In this document: positions 9,641 to 36,512 of the stretch, piece after piece | Layout: every line of letters starts with the position of its first letter | How positions within the stretch are numbered: position 1 is the stretch's first letter | DNA from: Bacteroidota bacterium | GTDB taxonomy: Bacteria > Bacteroidota > Ignavibacteria > UBA10030 | DNA: 46,974 nucleotides | Assembly: GCA_016928255.1 (NCBI GenBank) | Contig: JAFGLB010000037.1 | Span: forward strand, 1-46,974 | Reading direction: 5' to 3' | Made by a program: the position numbers and the translations under genes | The notes under the pieces: generated by a model | Told to the model about the DNA's origin: nothing | What the model saw: the letters and a program-made list of their open reading frames with translations, nothing else | The model's database searches: none

Positions 9641-12600
9641 CTATTTTACAACGGCAATTTTTATCAGAGCTGTGCTGCTTTGAGCGGCTCCCTTTGCTTC
9701 GACGCGCGCAAGATAAATGCCGCTCTGGATATTTGAAACATGCCATATTATCTCGTTATCCATACCGGCTGTTCCTTTTCCCTTCAACTCTGTTATTTTT
9801 ACACCGGAAAGATCGATAATTGTTATTGTGATATCTGAATTTTCCGATGTATAATAGCGGATATGCGTTAAACTGCCGTAAACCGGATTCGGCCAGTTAT
9901 AAACGCGTGATTTCGGAAAGAACTCGCTGCTGATAGGCCTTGCGACCATTATGCTTGTATCCGCATTCAGGTGCTGCTCGCTTCCTAAGTGCTGGTACCA
10001 GTAAAAGACCCTGCCTGCTGTCGAGGTACCCGTAAGAAACGCATTTAATTCCCCGTCTTCTGTAATAACCGCTATACCTAATTTATTTTGCGGGTACGGA
10101 CTTTCATATAATACCGGCTGCGCTTTTCCGCCTGCCGCCTGGATCGGGAATCCGGTCTGTAATTTTCCATCTCCCTCATGGATCCACATTGCACCATTAT
10201 TTGTCATTAACAGAATTTCCGGCCTGGCATCGCCGTCAAAATCGGCAACTAGCGGTGTACCTGAAAATTCCAGCCCGGCTTTAACGGTTATCGGGAATCC
10301 GTCAAGCATCAGGCCCATGCGGTTAAGAACGACAACCCGGAGTTTTGATTGGATTATTATATCTTTTTCGCCGTCCCCGTCAATATCGGCTACGGCAGTT
10401 TCCTGAATCTCGTCTCCGTCCAAAACAATGTCGAAATTTTTATTTTGCAGAAATCCGTCGAATGAAACAACCCTGGTACCGTTCTTTTCAAATGCGGCAA
10501 TAAAATTACCTTTGGGTGAAACCGCTGCGGCCAGCATCCAGCCGTATGCAGAATTGGGAAGCTCAGCCGAATCCTGCTCGCTGTAGATATAATTTCCAGA
10601 TGTGAAATAGCTGCTCTCTGATGATGATCCCGGAAGAACCGCAATAGACGATACTTCACCCGTGCCCGCGGAACGTCCTGAAATCAGTCTGCCGTCTGCA
10701 CTGTATTTATAGAATCCTTTTTCAGCTCCTACCAGAATATACAACGAATCGAAATTTACAATACACGGAGACGCGGTAATTTTATTCTCTACTACTGCGG
10801 TCGTTAAGACTACTGGATCCCCTGCAGTTGAAATATTAAATATACGAAGAGTATCATCATTGGCGCTTACAGCCATTTCTGTATTGCCGGACAATTTGCA
10901 TACCGCAACACCAAAATCTGATTTTACCGCCGAGATGAGCGGCGAAAATCCGGGTGACAATCCATTGCCGTCATTTTTAAAAGCGTAAATCCCGTTTTCA
11001 GCAGGAATATAAATATGATTTCTGGTTGATGTGGGGTACAAATTGGTGTTCGAGAGTGTCCGGCACAAAGCGGAATCTTTAACCAGCACGCTATTTCCTA
11101 TTTCCACATCTATGGACATGCGTTCGGATCTTTGACTGAAATTATTTATTGCGATCAAACTGGCGGCGCCAGAATGACTATTGCTGTTCGGAAATGAATT
11201 CAGGTCAAAGCTGTTTTTATACAGAAAAGCCGGATTGCCGGAGAACCAGCAGTCGAGCGGACTGCCGTATTCGGTACCTGATTCGTATGAAAGATCTTCA
11301 TATTTCTGCCCGATATCTTTTGATCCGTCCGCTTCCTTCAATTCCACACCGCGATGTTCGATATCTGCATTCACGGTATTTGATTTCAAACCCTCCTTGA
11401 TAACATTCTCATCTATATGCCAAATCAGAATTCCGCCGCCGTCGTATTTATCTGTTGTGTCCGACATTTCACCTATAAGAGCCCAATCATAACTACTTAC
11501 ATCTACTACCGAACCTTTGATGGTGTCGATATCGTAATACTTGAAACCTTTTATATCTTTTTCAAAGTGTACGATCGAGTCGCCGTTCAGGCCGGCAAAT
11601 GTCAGGTAAATGCCTGCTCCGTATGGATTTCTAATTCTATTTTCAACCAGAAAATATTCTGAGTTATTAATCGGAATGCGGTAAATAGTATCTTCTGCGG
11701 CATCGTTTAATCCTACCGCAGGCACTGATAAATTCTGTACAGAATTACCGGCAGTAATCGGAGTTACCCAGCCCAGGAACACTTTTTCCCATGCATTAGG
11801 TTCGGGAGGAAATAATCCGTTATACGCGAAGAAGCCTGCACCGTCCATCAATCCGAATTGGCCTATCCCTGAACGGCCTGTTTTAGTATCGAACAGATCC
11901 GGCAATCGCAGATAACTGCCTATTGAAGCGGCAAATAATCCGTTAATGCTCAGGTTAAGCTTAACACCATCAATTTCTCTTGATTCCGTTTCGGGCAGAA
12001 TAATTGTGTTTTTCACATTACCGTTTACAAGGCCGTTAAATGCAGATTGGTTTAACGCAGCGGCCAGTGCGGTAGAATCCAGATATAAAGACGGAATATC
12101 GAACGGAGCCGGATTATATCCCAGAGAACTTAAAAGATCTATATCGCGCCCTACGCCTGCATGGAAAACAACAAACAAATCGTAATCGGCGAAATTAATT
12201 CCGGAATAACTGCTTTCTGCCGCAATCCAGCTCTCCTGTGCCAGCTCGGCCAGTTTTCTATTGTCTGCCATTGTTGTAGGCGGAGAGTAGCTGGACATAG
12301 TTTTTGCAAGTACAACCCGCTGTCCGAGCAGTTCGCCTTTTACCGTCAGTCTCCCGTCAGATACCTTGCGGAAATAATTCTCGACAAAACGTATTTTATT
12401 TCGAAAATAAACTGAATCATGCGGCGGCGGATCAACCTGCTCCCGTGATCCGGTCATTATGAAGGTACCGTCTCCGGTGGTTTCATCAGTATTATCTGTC
12501 TGGAATTCGACCATCACTGCAAGAATACGAACAGTATCGACCGAATTCGGCAAAATAGAATTGGAAAAAAAAGGGACATCTACACTGCCGAGACGATGAT

Positions 12601-12703
12601 TAATTTTGAATTGTATCTGCCCTTCTACTGAAGAACCGATAAGCAATAAAGCCAACACCCAGTTACGTATCACAGATATTCCTTTTTTTTCCATACAAAG
12701 CAT
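9641..12703 (-). CDS. T9SS cargo: M6-peptidase-like protein lacking the zinc motif, with FG-GAP repeats and type A sorting domain
   Basis: The 1020-residue protein has an N-terminal signal peptide (about 1-28). Residues about 55-320 resemble M6 (immune inhibitor A-like) peptidases: LAVMVEFQTD, YDLFVVFHAG, LRLPDLFDT, GLMDGAG and NAWEKVFLGW are in family order. The zinc motif, HEFGH in active members, reads ASIGS here (residues 259-263, bases 11915-11929), so both histidines and the glutamate are missing. A propeller-like region with FG-GAP/VCBS motifs follows (VADIDGDGEKDIII, VADFDGDARPEILL, about 750-830). The last 85 residues are a T9SS type A sorting domain (YNWPNPV, IIDLSGVKI, SGIYLARVEAKG, KIAVVK). 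It is predicted to be secreted by the T9SS and processed by PorU. An alternative start is the ATG at codon 4. Confidence 0.85.
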   Translation of the reverse strand: MLCMEKKGISVIRNWVLALLLIGSSVEGQIQFKINHRLGSVDVPFFSNSILPNSVDTVRILAVMVEFQTDNTDETTGDGTFIMTGSREQVDPPPHDSVYFRNKIRFVENYFRKVSDGRLTVKGELLGQRVVLAKTMSSYSPPTTMADNRKLAELAQESWIAAESSYSGINFADYDLFVVFHAGVGRDIDLLSSLGYNPAPFDIPSLYLDSTALAAALNQSAFNGLVNGNVKNTIILPETESREIDGVKLNLSINGLFAASIGSYLRLPDLFDTKTGRSGIGQFGLMDGAGFFAYNGLFPPEPNAWEKVFLGWVTPITAGNSVQNLSVPAVGLNDAAEDTIYRIPINNSEYFLVENRIRNPYGAGIYLTFAGLNGDSIVHFEKDIKGFKYYDIDTIKGSVVDVSSYDWALIGEMSDTTDKYDGGGILIWHIDENVIKEGLKSNTVNADIEHRGVELKEADGSKDIGQKYEDLSYESGTEYGSPLDCWFSGNPAFLYKNSFDLNSFPNSNSHSGAASLIAINNFSQRSERMSIDVEIGNSVLVKDSALCRTLSNTNLYPTSTRNHIYIPAENGIYAFKNDGNGLSPGFSPLISAVKSDFGVAVCKLSGNTEMAVSANDDTLRIFNISTAGDPVVLTTAVVENKITASPCIVNFDSLYILVGAEKGFYKYSADGRLISGRSAGTGEVSSIAVLPGSSSESSYFTSGNYIYSEQDSAELPNSAYGWMLAAAVSPKGNFIAAFEKNGTRVVSFDGFLQNKNFDIVLDGDEIQETAVADIDGDGEKDIIIQSKLRVVVLNRMGLMLDGFPITVKAGLEFSGTPLVADFDGDARPEILLMTNNGAMWIHEGDGKLQTGFPIQAAGGKAQPVLYESPYPQNKLGIAVITEDGELNAFLTGTSTAGRVFYWYQHLGSEQHLNADTSIMVARPISSEFFPKSRVYNWPNPVYGSLTHIRYYTSENSDITITIIDLSGVKITELKGKGTAGMDNEIIWHVSNIQSGIYLARVEAKGAAQSSTALIKIAVVK

Positions 12704-12744: not shown

Positions 12745-13830
12745 TTACTCTCCACTGTCCCAGCCTATCGATAATGTGAGGCGTAATGTTCCGTCAAGCG
12801 GCTCTTCGCCTTCAAGTGTGCTGATGTATCCGAAATCGAAGCCGTAGAGGTCATATCTTATTCCCGCACCTACTGTCCAGAATTTTCTGTTGCCTTCACG
12901 AGGATCTTCATAGAAATATCCGGCGCGAACCGCTATCAATTTTGGCGAGCCGTACCAGTATTCCACACCCAGCATAGAATTGAACCTGCGCAATTGTTCG
13001 CTGATATTGCCCTGCGACCAGGTTGTAAAAATTGCTTCATAGAACTCGTCCGATTTGGCATCTCTTCTTCTTACCAACAGCCGGTTTACTTCAGCAGTGA
13101 CAGTAAGGTTGTTATATTCGCTCTGTAATGCTTTATAAGCTACACCGAGACGGAGGCTCATGGGAAGCGGATCCGCCTGTTCTCTATCCACATACGAAAT
13201 ATTAGGTCCGACATTAGCCAGCTTTAAGCCAAAGCTCATAGTAGTGTCAAGAAAATACGGTTTCCAGAGTAAGCCGACATCAAAGCAGAATCCGGAAGCA
13301 GTTCCGCTTCCGACTTCCATTCCTGCTCCCTGGTCGGCAAGATGCGAATAAATAAATCTTGCGGTGGTACCTATTCCAAGCTGATCGCTTATATTAGTAC
13401 TGTATGTAGCCGCAACAGCCAGCTCATAACCGGTAAATTTTCCGATAGGATCAGGTCCCGACGCACTCGTTCTGATAAATTCACCTAGATTTAAATACGT
13501 TAACTGGCCGCCGATAACTCCGTCGAGCATCTCAACAGGCTGTTTATAAGCCACATGTGCTATCCAGATATCGGAAAGGCCGAGGCCGGGAAGCCATTGA
13601 GTGTGAGTTAATGCCAGTTCTGAACCTTGCTGAAAAGCAAGTCCTGCCGGATTCCAGAACACAGCCCAAACATTATCCGCAATTGCCACGCCTGTTTCGC
13701 CCATACCGCCGGCACGTGAATCCGGTATAATAGTAATAAACGGTACAGCCGTAGTCTGCGTCTGTGCTTGCATAGTATTCTGAACAAATAATATGAATAC
13801 AGAGAGAACCGCTATAATCCTTTTTTTCAT
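12745..13830 (-). CDS. porV: PorV, T9SS outer-membrane shuttle/attachment protein
   Basis: This 361-residue FadL-type barrel has a signal peptide (1-23) and the PorV N-terminal motif SRAGGMGETGVAIADN followed by FWNPAGLA. Other PorV-like stretches are WLPGLGLSDIWIAHVAY and the terminal strand LRLTLSIGW. In Porphyromonas gingivalis, PorV (LptO) carries cargo from the SprA translocon to the attachment complex with PorU. Here the gene lies directly downstream of porU on the same strand, which supports the call over a generic FadL-like porin. GGAGG about 8 nt before the ATG is a clear ribosome-binding site. The 260-nt gap to porU holds a two-hairpin repeat, and the next gene encodes a protein with a T9SS sorting domain. 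Confidence 0.9.
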   Translation of the reverse strand: MKKRIIAVLSVFILFVQNTMQAQTQTTAVPFITIIPDSRAGGMGETGVAIADNVWAVFWNPAGLAFQQGSELALTHTQWLPGLGLSDIWIAHVAYKQPVEMLDGVIGGQLTYLNLGEFIRTSASGPDPIGKFTGYELAVAATYSTNISDQLGIGTTARFIYSHLADQGAGMEVGSGTASGFCFDVGLLWKPYFLDTTMSFGLKLANVGPNISYVDREQADPLPMSLRLGVAYKALQSEYNNLTVTAEVNRLLVRRRDAKSDEFYEAIFTTWSQGNISEQLRRFNSMLGVEYWYGSPKLIAVRAGYFYEDPREGNRKFWTVGAGIRYDLYGFDFGYISTLEGEEPLDGTLRLTLSIGWDSGE

Positions 13831-14090: not shown

Positions 14091-17000
14091 TTAACGTACT
14101 ACTGCAAGCTTTCCTATTGCTTCGCTTGTATTGCGGCCGTCCAGGGTTCGGGCAATTAATTTATACAGGTAGACGCCATTAGCAATCTCTCCGCCGTCGC
14201 TGTCTCTTCCATCCCAGGGGATCTTCACAGAACGGTCTGTAATATTATAAGCGTTCAGCCTGCCTATCAGCCTTCCTGCTATCGTATAAATTTTTACCTC
14301 GACATCAACCGGGTCAACACCGGTTCTTTGGAAAGTAAATGTGGTGGAGCTTGTAAATGGATTCGGGTAATTTACTACATTGAGCAGGGAGAGGTTATCC
14401 GCAAGCGTTATTGTAAAATAAACCTCTGCTTCCGCCGAATTGTTTTGTATATCCCATGCCTTTACACGAAGAGTGTATTTGCCTTCACCCAGGTCATTCA
14501 ACTGGTACCGCGCTTCGCCGGATTTATATGTATCGTAATCGCTCTGGTAATAGTTAGACAGGTTAATAATACGTTCATCGTTATTTATAGAAGCCGACAG
14601 CTGGTGGCCGACGCCTGCAGCCGATGTATTGATGCCGCTCTCGTCGTAAAATTTCACTATCAGCGTCGGATTGATATTCACGGCATCCCCGGAACGGAAA
14701 TCCAGGTCATTCATATAGACTGAAATTTGAGGCCCCTCGCCGTCGTTATTTGCAGATGCAGCAGAATCAACACCGTTTATCATAATATTTTCAGTATAAC
14801 CTGTCCCGTCAACTGCATCGTTCCATGCATACATCGATATTCTTGACCTGTTTCCGAAAGTGACATCCTTCGGGATCGGAATTGTCGCATTGAATTTTCC
14901 ATCCTGAATAGTCACTCCCCCCCGGTACAACAGACTGCCTTTTTTCTTGAAAATAAATGTTGCACTACCTTCCGTAATCTGGACATCCCTTTGTGAATCG
15001 AAAACCTGCAGTATTCCCTTTCCCTGAAAAGAAGTAACGGGTGTGCCGTCATTCAATCTCATCGAACCCCGAACGGGGACGTGCGCCAGCGATTTCATTT
15101 CCACCAGACTTGTTGCCGGGTGTCCGTTCACGCTGTCGATAGAGGTTACATTCTTCGGTGCAGTCAACCTTAATGTGGGATCGGCAAATAAATGAAACTT
15201 TTGTGCGTTCTCAACATCATCATTGCCTGCACTCGCGAGAATAGTTGATTTAGCATATTTTGAGGCATCACCAAGCCGTGAAGCTCTTCCATTTGCATCT
15301 TTTAAAAACAAATACTCGAAAAAAGCATTATTCAAATTGACATTCCGTGTATTTTGAACTGCACGAGATGCCGCGTATGTTCCAATAGCGCCATTTTCCA
15401 TTGTTACAAGCTGTTCGCCTGAACTTAAGACATTTGGACCGTCGTACTTACTATATGAACAAGTCGCTGCAAATATGAAAGGTAATTTATCCTTATTCTT
15501 AAGTTTAGGAAATTCGTCGTCTTGAACAAATATATGCTCATGCGCCCATAATTGATCGTTTCCATGTCCGATAAAATTCATGAATAACGTTCCCTGATTT
15601 ATCGCTTCAACAATTGCTTTATTCGCATCAGGTTTTCTGCGGCCTGACGCACTGTTTACTGTGGGGTATTCGATGATAAAAATCTTCTTTACTTCAAATT
15701 TCTTTGCCGAATTACTCTCCGCAAATCTTTCTGACGGATGGGTATATATTGCTTCATCGTCTCTTTCCGGCGTCCACCCGTCGTCTGCAACAAATGTCAG
15801 AACATTCCGCCAGGCGGAGGAATCAGCAAACGCATTTGTCTCATATGAAATGATTTTATTGACCACAATCGATGCTTCTTCGGCACTTCTTACCGGAAGA
15901 CGTCCAATCGCGGCAAAATATACATTTACATTCGGATCCAAAAGTACAAATTTATCATCTGTCGGATAACTCGAGTTTACTATATTAAACGACTCTTCCG
16001 GCTCGAACGGCGGAATCCAGTTCTTTTTGCTTGTAGTCTTATTTTTATAGTCAAAATGGCCCCATCCAAAAAGCAGAAAATACTGCGGCGCACCTGTCCA
16101 ATTATCCCGGGTATATCTTACAAATTCACGTATTGCCAGAACATCCGGTATCCCTCCTCCGAATTCACTGTAAATATGATTGATATCCACAACCAATGTG
16201 CGAAGGCTATCGCGTGTTTCCCTGTGTGTTTTCAACTGATTTGCCTGAGTTAAAAATTCAGTCGGTGAGATTATGACAAAATCATACTGCGATTGCGTAT
16301 TATGTAAATTTATCGTGTTATCAATTTTTACCGGCGGAACGGGAGTTTTATACCCGTTCGTACCGATTACAGCAATTTCGCGGACAGTTCTGCTTGCCAG
16401 CTGCACCTGAATCCGGCACATAGTCGGATCAGCTGAATAAAATTTCAATTCCTTAACATTGCCATGCTCTGTGACATCAAATGCACGTACATTTCCTGAA
16501 AAATTGCTGATGTCATATTGTACAATATCGTCGAAACTGTCGTGCGTATGGAAGAACAAGGCATCGTTCACCGCTTCGAAATTCCGGTCATAGAACATTT
16601 CTATCCAATCCAGCCAGGTTTTGGACTCCTGGTTCCCTGTTACCTGGATCTTTATTTCGCCTGCTCCAGTAGTATTCCCCCATGCTGTAAATGATACTTC
16701 TGATGCATAATAATCACTGCTGCCGCCCCTGTTTAAAGTATTTTTCAGTATAGACTGGCCGTTTTCAAAAATTTCCAGATTATCAACATATGAGGAATTG
16801 CGCAAAAATTTGAATTTATACGTCACTTTACTCGATGCCATAAGCCCGTGGAAAGTTCTGTTATATGCTGCTTCATCGGTACCTGAAAAATATTCTCCAG
16901 CCCACCTGCGCCCTGAATTCTGCAGGTTAAATTTTTCCTCTTCAATAAACATTTTTTCCTGGAAGCCTGTAGGTTTTATTGCAGAAGGCGAGACTGCAGA

Positions 17001-18062
17001 TGCAGAGACCGTATCCATCTGTCTGCCGTTACCCTGGTTATATGTAAAGAAATAAAAATTTTTTTCAGAGTAAGGATTGATATAATGCTTAAAGTTGCTG
17101 CTTCCGTCATAGACGTAATTCCAGCCGCTCGTACCGCGTCCGAAGAATATTATATAATCATCAGGATCAAAAACACCATTGCTGTTTTGGTCGCAGACCA
17201 GCCGGGAAATTTCCTCCAGCCCGTTGGGTCTTGGAGTAGTATTATCGTCAGGTATCGCCTGCCCGCCGTTCCCGAACAAGCGGATGGAATTTATATCTGT
17301 AATATTAAGGCCGCTGAAATATGAATATCCCAGTTTGTACATTCCAGTTTCAGTCACGTCGATCCGGTACCAGCTGCCCTGAGTGAGCGGAAAATCTGTT
17401 TTGGCGGATTGTTTATAACTTGCCTTTATCATTTTCTGCAGATGGGCTTTTGAGGGCTTCTCGCCTCTCATCAGGCAAGTCGATTTTAAACCAGCTGGGA
17501 AAGAATTTCTAAAATCGATTCTGACAACGATGCGTGAATAGATCCTTGCCTTTTCTCTATCGACTGCCTGTACGGGGTGCAGAACAAGAGTCCCGACATG
17601 CCCTATACTTGTTTTTCCCACGTTTGTCATTGCTGCAAGTATTTTTTGTTCAGGCGCGTAAGCAGTTCTTTCGAAACTTGAATCATCATAGGTTTCTGAA
17701 TAGCCTAATTCCTTGAGTTCTATAATAGTTGGTTTCGGCAGCAGTTTTACAGAATCTCTGGTCTGGTATTCGCTTGCGATCACTTGAAGCGAGAACCCGT
17801 CCGACGGCAAGAGTAAAAGCAAGGGCCGTATAAAATCCGTTCTTCCGGACGAATCGTACGCAGTTTGACTGCCGTAGAATAGAAACCGGGTAAATACAGT
17901 CCCCTGGTTTCCGGTCACGTATTCGGTTTTAATTTGCGGTGTAAATTCAATGACCAGTGAAGACTGGTCTTCGCTTAAAACACGTATATCGGTCATAAGC
18001 TGTGCATCGACAGCTGTAACTGCGAGTACACAGGCGAAGAAGAGTAAGATTGATTTTTTCAT
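14091..18062 (-). CDS. porU: PorU, T9SS C-terminal-signal peptidase (sortase)
   Basis: The 1323-residue protein has a signal peptide (1-20), a long N-terminal beta-rich region, and a gingipain-type C25 peptidase domain at about 590-1000. The catalytic dyad is visible as His833 in FIGHGNDQLW and Cys868 in IFAATCSYSKYDG. PorU cleaves the C-terminal sorting signal of T9SS cargo and attaches the cargo to the cell surface; it acts outside the outer membrane together with PorV. The C-terminus is itself FlgD/T9SS-like (NYPNPFTSSTTF, IYTIAGRLIG, NGVYLYKLIA, KLAVVR), as in other PorU proteins. It is somewhat longer than the roughly 1160 residues of the P. gingivalis protein. The ATG sits directly behind the U-tract of a strong terminator at 18063-18106, so expression should depend on readthrough. 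Confidence 0.93.
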   Translation of the reverse strand: MKKSILLFFACVLAVTAVDAQLMTDIRVLSEDQSSLVIEFTPQIKTEYVTGNQGTVFTRFLFYGSQTAYDSSGRTDFIRPLLLLLPSDGFSLQVIASEYQTRDSVKLLPKPTIIELKELGYSETYDDSSFERTAYAPEQKILAAMTNVGKTSIGHVGTLVLHPVQAVDREKARIYSRIVVRIDFRNSFPAGLKSTCLMRGEKPSKAHLQKMIKASYKQSAKTDFPLTQGSWYRIDVTETGMYKLGYSYFSGLNITDINSIRLFGNGGQAIPDDNTTPRPNGLEEISRLVCDQNSNGVFDPDDYIIFFGRGTSGWNYVYDGSSNFKHYINPYSEKNFYFFTYNQGNGRQMDTVSASAVSPSAIKPTGFQEKMFIEEEKFNLQNSGRRWAGEYFSGTDEAAYNRTFHGLMASSKVTYKFKFLRNSSYVDNLEIFENGQSILKNTLNRGGSSDYYASEVSFTAWGNTTGAGEIKIQVTGNQESKTWLDWIEMFYDRNFEAVNDALFFHTHDSFDDIVQYDISNFSGNVRAFDVTEHGNVKELKFYSADPTMCRIQVQLASRTVREIAVIGTNGYKTPVPPVKIDNTINLHNTQSQYDFVIISPTEFLTQANQLKTHRETRDSLRTLVVDINHIYSEFGGGIPDVLAIREFVRYTRDNWTGAPQYFLLFGWGHFDYKNKTTSKKNWIPPFEPEESFNIVNSSYPTDDKFVLLDPNVNVYFAAIGRLPVRSAEEASIVVNKIISYETNAFADSSAWRNVLTFVADDGWTPERDDEAIYTHPSERFAESNSAKKFEVKKIFIIEYPTVNSASGRRKPDANKAIVEAINQGTLFMNFIGHGNDQLWAHEHIFVQDDEFPKLKNKDKLPFIFAATCSYSKYDGPNVLSSGEQLVTMENGAIGTYAASRAVQNTRNVNLNNAFFEYLFLKDANGRASRLGDASKYAKSTILASAGNDDVENAQKFHLFADPTLRLTAPKNVTSIDSVNGHPATSLVEMKSLAHVPVRGSMRLNDGTPVTSFQGKGILQVFDSQRDVQITEGSATFIFKKKGSLLYRGGVTIQDGKFNATIPIPKDVTFGNRSRISMYAWNDAVDGTGYTENIMINGVDSAASANNDGEGPQISVYMNDLDFRSGDAVNINPTLIVKFYDESGINTSAAGVGHQLSASINNDERIINLSNYYQSDYDTYKSGEARYQLNDLGEGKYTLRVKAWDIQNNSAEAEVYFTITLADNLSLLNVVNYPNPFTSSTTFTFQRTGVDPVDVEVKIYTIAGRLIGRLNAYNITDRSVKIPWDGRDSDGGEIANGVYLYKLIARTLDGRNTSEAIGKLAVVR

Positions 18063-18106
18063 AAAAAAAAAGCCGATCGAGAAATTTTGGTTATCTCGTT
18101 CGGCTT
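18063..18106 (-). terminator. Intrinsic terminator ending at the porU start codon (attenuator)
   Basis: On the minus strand the arms 18106-18094 and 18082-18070 form 12 of 13 pairs (one A-A mismatch) around an 11-base loop, followed by seven U (18069-18063) and then the porU ATG. The next gene upstream is divergent, so this terminator can only act on RNA begun inside the 344-base gap. An alternative 8-bp perfect pairing exists between the 5' arm (18105-18098) and an upstream segment (18137-18130). It would break the terminator. Confidence 0.8.
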
Positions 18107-18119
18107 AAAATATATGTTA

Positions 18120-18227
18120 AGAGAGCTTCAGCCGAACTTGAATAAGGTTCCTACGGCAAATACAATCCCTAACTTTTTCCACGACAATTTAGGAATGAAC
18201 CTTTATCAAGCCTTCGATAAACTCTCC
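18120..18227 (-). ncRNA. Structured RNA leader upstream of porU (candidate riboswitch-like attenuator or small RNA)
   Basis: On the minus strand GGAGAG (18227-18222) pairs with CUCUCU (18125-18120). Inside, 18210-18197 pairs with 18150-18137 at 12 of 14 positions. Further in, 18196-18189 pairs with 18172-18165 (8 bp, one G-U). A competing perfect 6-bp hairpin uses 18221-18216 with 18207-18202. The segment 18137-18130, in the 3' side of an internal loop, is the antiterminator strand for the terminator at 18063-18106. A promoter lies just upstream. I do not recognise a known riboswitch consensus. It could be a ligand- or protein-controlled leader for porU, or a terminated small RNA of 6S-like shape. 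Confidence 0.6.
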
Positions 18228-18251
18228 ATTAATAGTAAGCAACTAGTGATT

Positions 18252-18280
18252 AAGATAATAAACTGATTGAATATTGTCAA
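18252..18280 (-). promoter_or_regulatory. Sigma-70-type promoter of the porU leader
   Basis: TTGACA (18280-18275 on the minus strand, a full consensus match) is followed after 17 bases by TATCTT (18257-18252). Transcription would start near 18243, about 15 bases before the first paired base of the structured leader. Confidence 0.65.
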
Positions 18281-34249: not shown

Positions 34250-36340
34250 TTACGGTTTATTTATTGTACAGCGAACATTGACAGAAGAACGTATCCGTAT
34301 AAAATCGTTATGCCTGAATTTTACCGGATTTATTCCATTTCCCGTGTTAAAAAACAGCCTTATGCATACTGAATCCGATTCCGCCATTGTATTGACCTCT
34401 TCACCGGTCAGATGAATTGCCATGTTCGAGATCCTCGGGTTCGTCGCATTGCCTAACATATCAACTTCCGAAGCTTTTATAAGCGTATCCGGTAAAATTC
34501 TGAATGTCGTATCGGACAGCGATCTCGTTGAATCCCATTTTAAAAAGCTCATCTGGAATTTCATAGCTATAGGAATTCTGTTTGTAAATTCCAGATTCAT
34601 TGCACCATCTATGATGCTTCGTATTACTGACTGTTCAACATCATCGCTGATTGGATCTTTTTCCACACCCACAACGCTTCCGCTTATAATTGCCAGGTCT
34701 GTCGGGATGCTCACATCCAGCGACGGGTAGACCTTCGAAGTATCGTATATTGTATAGAAATTATTCATGTCTGCCGGCGCATTAAAGACACCACGGACAA
34801 AAAAAGAATCCGGCAGATCCGGGAAAAACTCACCGAAGAAATTGACAAAATTGGAGTATTCCGCGGCGCTGGAATTCTGTGCGATGTTAATGAATGAATT
34901 CTGATGTGCCGGATCGACGGTTCCGTTAAAAATGGATATAGAGCGCGTCTGATTATATTTTGAGTTCTTGGCAACCAGCACAAGATTCTCATAACTGAAT
35001 GGAATATTTTCCCGTGTATACAATCTTAAATTAAGCTGAACATTTCTGAATAATAATCTGGCCCTGACTTTATCGATATCCTTTCCGAGATCATAATCCG
35101 ATTCAAAACCCGAATCAATGTCCTGTGCCATCGGTTCAAACCTGCCGTCCACCCTTTCGGCTGTAAGCGGACGGTCCGGCTGCAGCTGGGCTATCATAAC
35201 ATCGTTCTTGGAAACTTGCTTTTTAACGCCTTCCGAATCGAATATCTCGACATCAACAGAATAATGCAGATGAGTGCCTGTTCCCGTACCTGGAGTTTCA
35301 ATATAAAGCGGCGGCATTGAAACCGGATGCACGTATGTTTCCCCGCCCTGTATTGGTCTGTCGACCCTGTAATTTTCTCCATTTGACCTGTAGAACAATT
35401 CATTAATTCTTATGTGAACTTGTGAATTAATCTGGGAGCCGTTTGTAATGCTGATCAGGAAACTGCCTTCCTTAAAGAATGCTTGCCGTATTACAGTAAC
35501 ATCATCCAATGTGAACGTCCCGTTTGTTATCGGTTGCAGCATCTGATATGATATAACCGCGAAAGCGCTGTCTGCTTTCAGAGGAGAGGATTGAAATGAA
35601 ATAGATATGCCGTCGGATGGAAAGATTGAAATCGGGCCGCTGTATCCTTCAGTATGTATTGTAATAGCATCTGTTGTAAGAATTCCACGAACAAGCTCGT
35701 TATCAAGCGGCGACTGAAGCGATATGGAAGCACCCTGCGATAATATGCCCGGGACTACATATCCGGCTATTCTTACCGTGTCTTCCGGCGATGTCCAATT
35801 ATTGCGTAAAATTATGGGATCAGGAAAACTTATCGGAAATGGAAAATTATTTGTTACAGTCATTGTCAATATACCGGTATTGACTCCAACATAATAGAAT
35901 TCGCTGGTATCTATAAGATCCACCGGTGCTGCTGAATATGTACCCACACCCAGACCGGGCAGGTTTCCTGTAGGAACTCCAAAAGCGGGAGCAGCAATAT
36001 TCTTTGCCGGAAGGACAAAAGGCTCGATATCAAACACACCCAAAGCAGCCGTAGTATCTGTTGCATCCGGTTCATACGTCATCGAGTCAACCTGAACCGG
36101 CTCTGTCGTAAATGAAGTATTATAGAAATACGTACTGTCTGCAGTGTTAAGCAAAAAGACTGTATCCTTTTTCGCAAATTCACTGAAGTATTCTGTCTTA
36201 TCAAGGATCGGAATTGTCAGATGTGTATCATATGTCGGCCCGACCGGTTCAAGCGGGGACTCAATACAGCTGAAAGAGATGAAAGAGACTAAAAGAATTA
36301 GAATGTTTTTTTTGTTTATTCCTGAATTTCTATTTTTCAT
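34250..36340 (-). CDS. Large predicted lipoprotein
   Basis: I place the start at ATG 36340, giving 696 residues with a clean lipoprotein signal (MKNRNSGINKKNILILLVS, then FISFSC, lipid-modified Cys25). A longer frame reaches 36466 but would start upstream of the promoter at 36386-36414. The mature protein is beta-rich with no recognised domain; stretches such as LTMTVTNNFPFPISFPDPIILRNN look like repeated immunoglobulin-like sandwiches. No catalytic motif is seen. The next gene, 14 nt downstream, is a PorV/FadL-like barrel, so this is the second lipoprotein/barrel pair in the window. It is likely anchored in the outer membrane. Confidence 0.75.
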   Translation of the reverse strand: MKNRNSGINKKNILILLVSFISFSCIESPLEPVGPTYDTHLTIPILDKTEYFSEFAKKDTVFLLNTADSTYFYNTSFTTEPVQVDSMTYEPDATDTTAALGVFDIEPFVLPAKNIAAPAFGVPTGNLPGLGVGTYSAAPVDLIDTSEFYYVGVNTGILTMTVTNNFPFPISFPDPIILRNNWTSPEDTVRIAGYVVPGILSQGASISLQSPLDNELVRGILTTDAITIHTEGYSGPISIFPSDGISISFQSSPLKADSAFAVISYQMLQPITNGTFTLDDVTVIRQAFFKEGSFLISITNGSQINSQVHIRINELFYRSNGENYRVDRPIQGGETYVHPVSMPPLYIETPGTGTGTHLHYSVDVEIFDSEGVKKQVSKNDVMIAQLQPDRPLTAERVDGRFEPMAQDIDSGFESDYDLGKDIDKVRARLLFRNVQLNLRLYTRENIPFSYENLVLVAKNSKYNQTRSISIFNGTVDPAHQNSFINIAQNSSAAEYSNFVNFFGEFFPDLPDSFFVRGVFNAPADMNNFYTIYDTSKVYPSLDVSIPTDLAIISGSVVGVEKDPISDDVEQSVIRSIIDGAMNLEFTNRIPIAMKFQMSFLKWDSTRSLSDTTFRILPDTLIKASEVDMLGNATNPRISNMAIHLTGEEVNTMAESDSVCIRLFFNTGNGINPVKFRHNDFIRIRSSVNVRCTINKP

Positions 36341-36385
36341 ACTCAACCTTAATATTCTCTTTTTTCTTGAACTAAGACTTAAAAG

Positions 36386-36414
36386 AATATAGCCACAGCA
36401 TAAAGAATAGTCAA
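36386..36414 (-). promoter_or_regulatory. Sigma-70-type promoter of the second lipoprotein/barrel pair
   Basis: TTGACT (36414-36409, minus strand), 17 bases, then TATATT (36391-36386). The start site would lie near 36379, about 40 bases before the chosen ATG, and it excludes the longer open frame. Confidence 0.65.
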
Positions 36415-36465
36415 TGAATTGAACGGCCGGCAGGTATGCATTCGAGAATAATGTGCGTGCTGTCA

Positions 36466-36512
36466 CAAAAAAAACGGAAGCTGGCTCACAAATCTTATGC
36501 GCCGGCTTCCGT
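36466..36512 (-). terminator. Intrinsic terminator after the DUF3467 gene
   Basis: On the minus strand the arms 36512-36501 and 36485-36474 form a 12-bp stem (one G-U) around a 15-base loop, followed by seven or eight U. It lies 20 bases after the DUF3467 stop and closes the TPR/DUF3467 unit. Confidence 0.88.

Follow-up and report, generated by a model that had tools for sequence, protein, structure and literature searches.

A putative family of cis-acting transcription attenuators upstream of the T9SS sortase gene porU

The window analysed here is a 46,974-nt stretch of DNA in which the minus strand carries, directly upstream of porU (18063-18280), a promoter, a long rod (helices P1, P2, and P3), and an intrinsic terminator. 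The question raised by this leader is what a structured RNA and a terminator do immediately in front of a sortase gene. The first-pass annotation had read the layout as that of a transcription attenuator. The element is best read as belonging to a family of cis-acting attenuators of transcription that precede porU and have not been described before, a reading for which a probability of about 0.82 was estimated from sequence comparison; the attenuator layout is supported by covariation of the rod, the terminator, and the antiterminator and by the constant link to porU.

Leader and genes at the porU locus

The gene behind the leader (14091-18062, minus strand) encodes the T9SS sortase PorU (1323 aa; NF033707, 928 bits; Peptidase_C25). 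It is followed on the same strand by porV (12745-13830), identified by domain and family search, and by a gene for a T9SS-dependent M6-like protein with a sorting tail (9641-12703; NF052323, 837 bits), a cargo gene that is probably in the same operon as porU. On the other side of the leader, the divergent orientation of glgA was confirmed. Judging by gene order, the leader would control the T9SS operon of porU, porV, and the cargo gene.

The promoter consists of the -35 hexamer TTGACA (18280-18275) and the -10 hexamer TATCTT (18257-18252) on the minus strand with a 17-nt spacer, as annotated before. TTGAC recurs in relatives and lies upstream of the AAAGG of P2 in 62 of 65 related loci. Transcription would start at ~18245, ~183 nt before the porU ATG. 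The 5' strand of P1 (18219-18227), which begins with GGAG (18224-18227; A/GGGA(G) in most relatives), pairs with the 3' strand at 18128-18120. The conserved AUCGAA that comes next (18213-18218) reads AUAGA in many relatives, and its CGAA (18216-18213) pairs with UUCG at 18136-18133. The 5' strand of P2 is CUUGAUAAAGGUU (18198-18210), with UAAAGGUU as its near-invariant part. P3 is a hairpin with a variable loop (18166-18195) in which 18195-18190 pairs with 18171-18166. The 3' strand of P2 together with GUUCGGCU (18130-18150) has two candidate partners, P2 in the OFF state or the terminator 5' arm in the ON state.

The terminator hairpin and its U9 tract span 18063-18106. Its arms, 18106-18094 and 18082-18070, form 12 of 13 pairs with a single A.A mismatch (18099/18077), and the 5' arm with the start of the loop, AGCCGAACGAGAUAACCA (18088-18105), is the antiterminator partner. 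The nine-T run at 18071-18063 leads without a gap into the porU ATG at 18062-18060. The terminator thereby lies between the promoter and the first gene on the same strand, as in an attenuator. Both the nested pairing of 18227-18120 and this terminator were found as the first-pass annotation had drawn them. The folding energy of the leader was -50.5 kcal/mol versus -34.9 kcal/mol for shuffled sequences (z of -3.88), lower than that of 200 out of 200 dinucleotide shuffles.

Two further sites were noted in the window. Within porU, a hairpin of 7 bp followed by a T-rich tail (17969-17952, minus strand) scores as terminator-like, and an eight-T run (36467-36488, minus strand) abuts the GTG start of the ORF at 34250-36466 in a way that resembles the porU junction.

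Distribution and covariation of the element

A DNA search found the element in five of five other genomes of the same genus, each time between porU and glgA and with 70-81% identity. Covariance model R1, built from the six same-genus sequences, was then used in a whole-genome search and found the element in 27 of the 32 genomes of the host family. These first family members all carry it as a single copy directly before porU on the same strand, with the porU ATG 3-14 nt past the U tract (27/27); this spacing leaves no room for a promoter and argues against a porU transcript that starts downstream of the hairpin, an outcome raised in the first-pass annotation. Model R2 (22 family and order sequences) carried the search into further families and orders of the host class, and its matches outside the family were again directly before porU, apart from weak false positives. 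Model R3 (49 sequences) gave matches in 84 of the 98 genomes of the host order. When the R3 match coordinates were compared with a separate protein search for porU, 78 of 86 matches (78 of 98 genomes) were directly upstream of porU on its strand, and the remainder mostly look like contig breaks, apart from one palindromic match on the reverse strand and one chance match. Since covariance models carry no gene information, the link to porU is independent evidence that the matches are real. In nearly all genomes that have porU without a match, porU is broken at a contig end, and in two genomes with porU for which the initial search gave no match (G017 and G089), the element was found with filters off. 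Most of the genomes searched are MAGs.

The gene upstream of the element varies between families (glgA or other genes), and the RNA and porU remain together. An element tied to the glgA-porU pair was rejected, as glgA was not found upstream in f2, f4, f12, f17, f20, and some other families. A sample of 395 genomes from across the phylum yielded no real copy outside the host class: six matches in other classes proved to be ordinary terminators (GCCGAA...UUCGGC) that lacked both a rod and porU. One in-class match (G237) was also discarded, having no porU and lying in an apparent coding sequence. An exact DNA pattern searched against named genomes matched Ignavibacteriae/Ignavibacteriales and Bacteroidetes MAGs and also gave ~8 matches in unrelated taxa, including Acidithiobacillus and Mariprofundaceae, against ~7 chance matches expected by our own estimate. 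The names among these pattern matches point to the class to which the carriers would belong.

The covariance search of porU upstream regions, as proposed in the first-pass annotation, found helices that are both conserved and covarying. In the 49-sequence alignment, 36 of 42 pairs were altered on both sides, and 88.6% of cells were paired versus 32-48% when the partner was slid by 1-3 columns; alignments A6 and A8 were fitted to the model structure, so the exact percentages lean towards the model. The same picture was obtained for 22 sequences aligned with R1. All nine pairs of P1 have changes on both sides across relatives, with the sequence lost and the pairing kept, and P2 (UUAAAGGUU paired with RRCCUUUAA) hardly varies. 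CCGAA/UUCGG is retained in the terminator stem, 10 of whose 12 modelled pairs are altered on both sides in relatives. In most members, a purine-rich A/GGGA(G) stands before P1 and AUA or AUC after it. A survey of 65 related loci for an SD-like A/GGGA(G) ~10-25 nt before P2 showed this motif, followed 5-9 nt on by AUA, AUC, or AUU, to be kept across most of the class.

Alternative pairing and predicted switching

The terminator 5' arm can also pair with the rod. GTTCGGCT at 18137-18130 is perfectly complementary to AGCCGAAC at 18105-18098, and this 8-bp pairing is perfect in six of six same-genus sequences, though the terminator 3' arm drifts. The alternative pairing of the first-pass annotation is therefore real, but its length was underestimated, as it reaches well past 8 bp and takes in parts of both P2 and the terminator loop. 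Beyond the genus, a longer helix forms between the P2 3' strand with its flanks and the terminator 5' arm with the loop start; for instance, GGGAACAGCCUUUGUCAUGUCGG pairs with CCGAGUGAGCGGGCAUUGUUCCC in L055, and GACCUUUAACAU with AUGUUAAAGGU in L097. The terminator 5' arm and loop start resemble the P2 5' strand in relatives, and on this resemblance the terminator is taken to carry a copy of that strand.

The antiterminator tests were run on unaligned sequence, since gapped alignment columns cut the strands. For the host family (30 sequences from 16 genera), the pairing of each sequence with its own partner averaged -20.7 kcal/mol versus -16.0 kcal/mol for swaps with other genera (0 of 5000 permutations), and the outcome was again 0 of 5000 with one sequence per genus; the portion outside the conserved arm gave -11.1 versus -8.2 kcal/mol (0/5000). 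Outside the host family, the values were -13.5 kcal/mol for own pairing versus -11.1 kcal/mol for swaps (0/5000), and -13.6 versus -10.95 kcal/mol (0/5000) with one sequence from each of 18 genera. These swap permutations lessen the effect of shared ancestry but do not fully remove it. G017, which is in no model, had an antiterminator of -26.7 kcal/mol (p of 0.01), an out-of-sample success, and G089 had one of -13.3 kcal/mol (p of 0.08). A noisier version of the test, in which the entire rod could serve as partner and terminators were picked automatically, placed 28 of 61 sequences at p<0.05. The leader thus combines a terminator with a mutually exclusive antiterminator that has covariation support.

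Some families depart from this arrangement. The pairing is weak in some f6 and f12 members, and in three f17 members no pairing was found between the P2 3' strand and the terminator, two of these three using a loop sequence for pairing. In f17 members L100 and L124, the apical loop of the rod nearly repeats the sequence of the terminator 3' arm (UUUCAAUUUCGG/UUUUAAUUUCGG), which is proposed as an alternative route to an antiterminator. A proper second terminator is absent in f20 and in two f5 members. In f20, L112 (2491-2627, minus strand) and L132 (2501-2650, plus strand) consist of a near-perfect palindromic rod that ends in a U tract, have no second terminator, and have their best porU start codon within the 3' strand of the rod; control in f20 may be at translation. 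In f5 and f12 (L101, L102, L145, L129, L110, and L128), a U tract directly follows the rod, and the rod may itself act as a terminator that precedes the second one in a tandem arrangement; the second is lost or degraded in L145 and L129.

Folding of the full leader gave a probability of ~1 for the terminator and 2.5e-8 for the antiterminator. Before the terminator 3' arm is made, the rod was still favoured by ~7 kcal/mol, and in thermodynamic folding without a helper, the share of the antiterminator was almost nil. Because the rod and the terminator fold at a probability of ~1, the predicted default is OFF, and activation would therefore have to keep the rod 5' strand occupied during synthesis of the 3' strand. 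The nascent leader would present the rod 5' strand (P1/P2), then P3, and then the rod 3' strand (CCUU..UUCGGU). With the rod closed, the terminator 5' arm would be free, the terminator would form, and transcription would stop at the porU start codon (OFF). Were a factor to hold the rod 5' strand unpaired, the freed 3' strand would form a helix of ~15-25 bp with the 5' arm and loop of the terminator, the terminator could not form, and porU, porV, and the cargo gene would be transcribed (ON), a route taken from the folding model. We infer from the sequence that termination takes place, that OFF is the default, and that an activating signal acts on the leader. The first hairpin of the nascent RNA (7 bp, 18220-18202) briefly occupies the rod 5' strand; the second competing fold that the first-pass annotation placed at 18197-18221 is real as this hairpin, though inspection by eye showed no conservation of it beyond the genus.

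Input to the leader, rival explanations, and significance

A trans-acting factor (an RNA-binding protein or a ribosome subunit) on the near-invariant AUAGA/AUCGAA...UUAAAGGUU strand is favoured over a small molecule as the putative input, because the element is a single rod in which the conserved letters lie mostly in one helix strand and not in a junction-type pocket. A true riboswitch, in which the rod is an aptamer and a ligand sets termination by stabilising or opening P1/P2, is a sub-case of the attenuator reading that differs in its input. It is possible though on balance unlikely. The layout does match the expression platforms of riboswitches, and the conserved unpaired AUAGA/AUCGAA and the end of J3/2 lie beside the near-invariant P2. 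However, the conserved unpaired nucleotides are few, P2 is conserved as a helix, and the element occurs as one copy with one target gene, found only before porU and not before several metabolic genes. Rfam also gave no match: with Rfam 15, neither the window nor the members from nine other genomes matched at the database's own thresholds, and a loose threshold returned four chance-level matches for the window, which agrees with the earlier statement that no known riboswitch class could be recognised. SD-like motifs precede 8 of the 33 genes in the window versus a background of 5.5%, so a ribosome might dock at the conserved A/GGGA(G). A more specific proposal is a class-wide RNA sensor of the secretion or translation state, in which the 30S subunit or a dedicated protein would dock on the A/GGGA(G)-AUA/AUC/AUU-P2 5' strand of an untranslated leader, hold the rod open, and turn porU on, or else a new riboswitch class; this proposal is speculative and was given rather low odds. 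Attenuation by ribosome stalling on a leader peptide is far less credible. Short ATG ORFs do occur in some same-genus leaders (e.g., MESLSKA), at or near GGAG, but not even the members of the genus all share an ATG ORF, the AUH triplet and AAAGG are separated by a distance without frame conservation (33/16/11 over the three frames), and peptide lengths range from 2 to 81 residues. The leader-peptide attenuator was rejected for want of a conserved short leader ORF.

The remaining explanations do without a switch. A fixed, unregulated partial terminator that keeps porU at a low constant level, or a roadblock for incoming transcription, was judged improbable. It would accord with a default fold that is fully terminating and with the fact that no ligand or protein input for the leader is known, but the covariation of the terminator loop with the rod 3' strand across genera points to a second partner, for which a fixed terminator has no need, and in the host family, where the upstream gene is divergent, there is usually no incoming transcription to block. 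An independent small RNA gene, a 6S-like rod with its own terminator that lies before porU by chance, is very improbable, even though the element has its own promoter, the shape of a rod, a length of ~183 nt, and a terminator, and in some relatives a U tract straight after the rod. The short distance from U tract to porU leaves no space for a second promoter in the 27 first members, the link to porU persists when the upstream gene changes, and a covarying antiterminator would be useless to a plain small RNA. The leader is like 6S RNA (RF00013) in its rod-like form and similar length and unlike it in having an antiterminator and being cis-linked to porU, whereas 18 of 32 family genomes encode 6S RNA at another site. 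6S RNA itself was rejected as the identity of the element, as RF00013 had no match at the porU locus or in its own genome and the 6S loci of the family are on other contigs. The candidates in those 18 genomes (L064-L067 and others) mostly score below the Rfam cut-off; in the genus of the window, no 6S RNA was found by the RF00013 search, and it may be too divergent for that model. A terminated small RNA is possible as a by-product, as the first-pass annotation suggested; as the main role, it is argued against by the antiterminator and the constant porU linkage. The view that the RNA structure is incidental and that the inverted repeat serves a transcription factor as a DNA operator can hardly be entertained: GTTAAAGG/CCTTTAAC is a conserved inverted repeat, but the spacing of its arms varies by tens of bases, P1 goes on pairing despite the loss of its sequence, and the repeat sits between a normal promoter and a terminator.

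For the attenuator reading, the TRAP/trp leader, BglG-type RAT, and L10 leader were used for comparison. The porU leader shares with these a promoter and a structured leader with an exclusive antiterminator and terminator before the first gene, and as in attenuating riboswitch and protein-dependent platforms, the strand that pairs first would decide the outcome. It differs in having no sequence or Rfam similarity to such leaders, in its target, a T9SS sortase gene, and in a terminator arm and loop that copy one strand of a rod helix. In Porphyromonas gingivalis, PorXY-SigP regulates the expression of T9SS component genes, and SigP was shown to bind upstream of porT, ruvA, porV, and porP (PMC4800418). 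That two-component system and ECF sigma factor act on promoters (PMC4800418), whereas the porU leader would act at the RNA level. RNA-level control of porU was not found in the T9SS literature searched, the coverage of which is incomplete. A class-wide single-copy attenuator before the sortase gene would be a new control layer and a new RNA family. Its conservation across the class, with compensatory changes, suggests that protein secretion is under RNA-level control by a signal, and the element offers a way to learn what these bacteria, most of them uncultured, may sense before investing in surface secretion.
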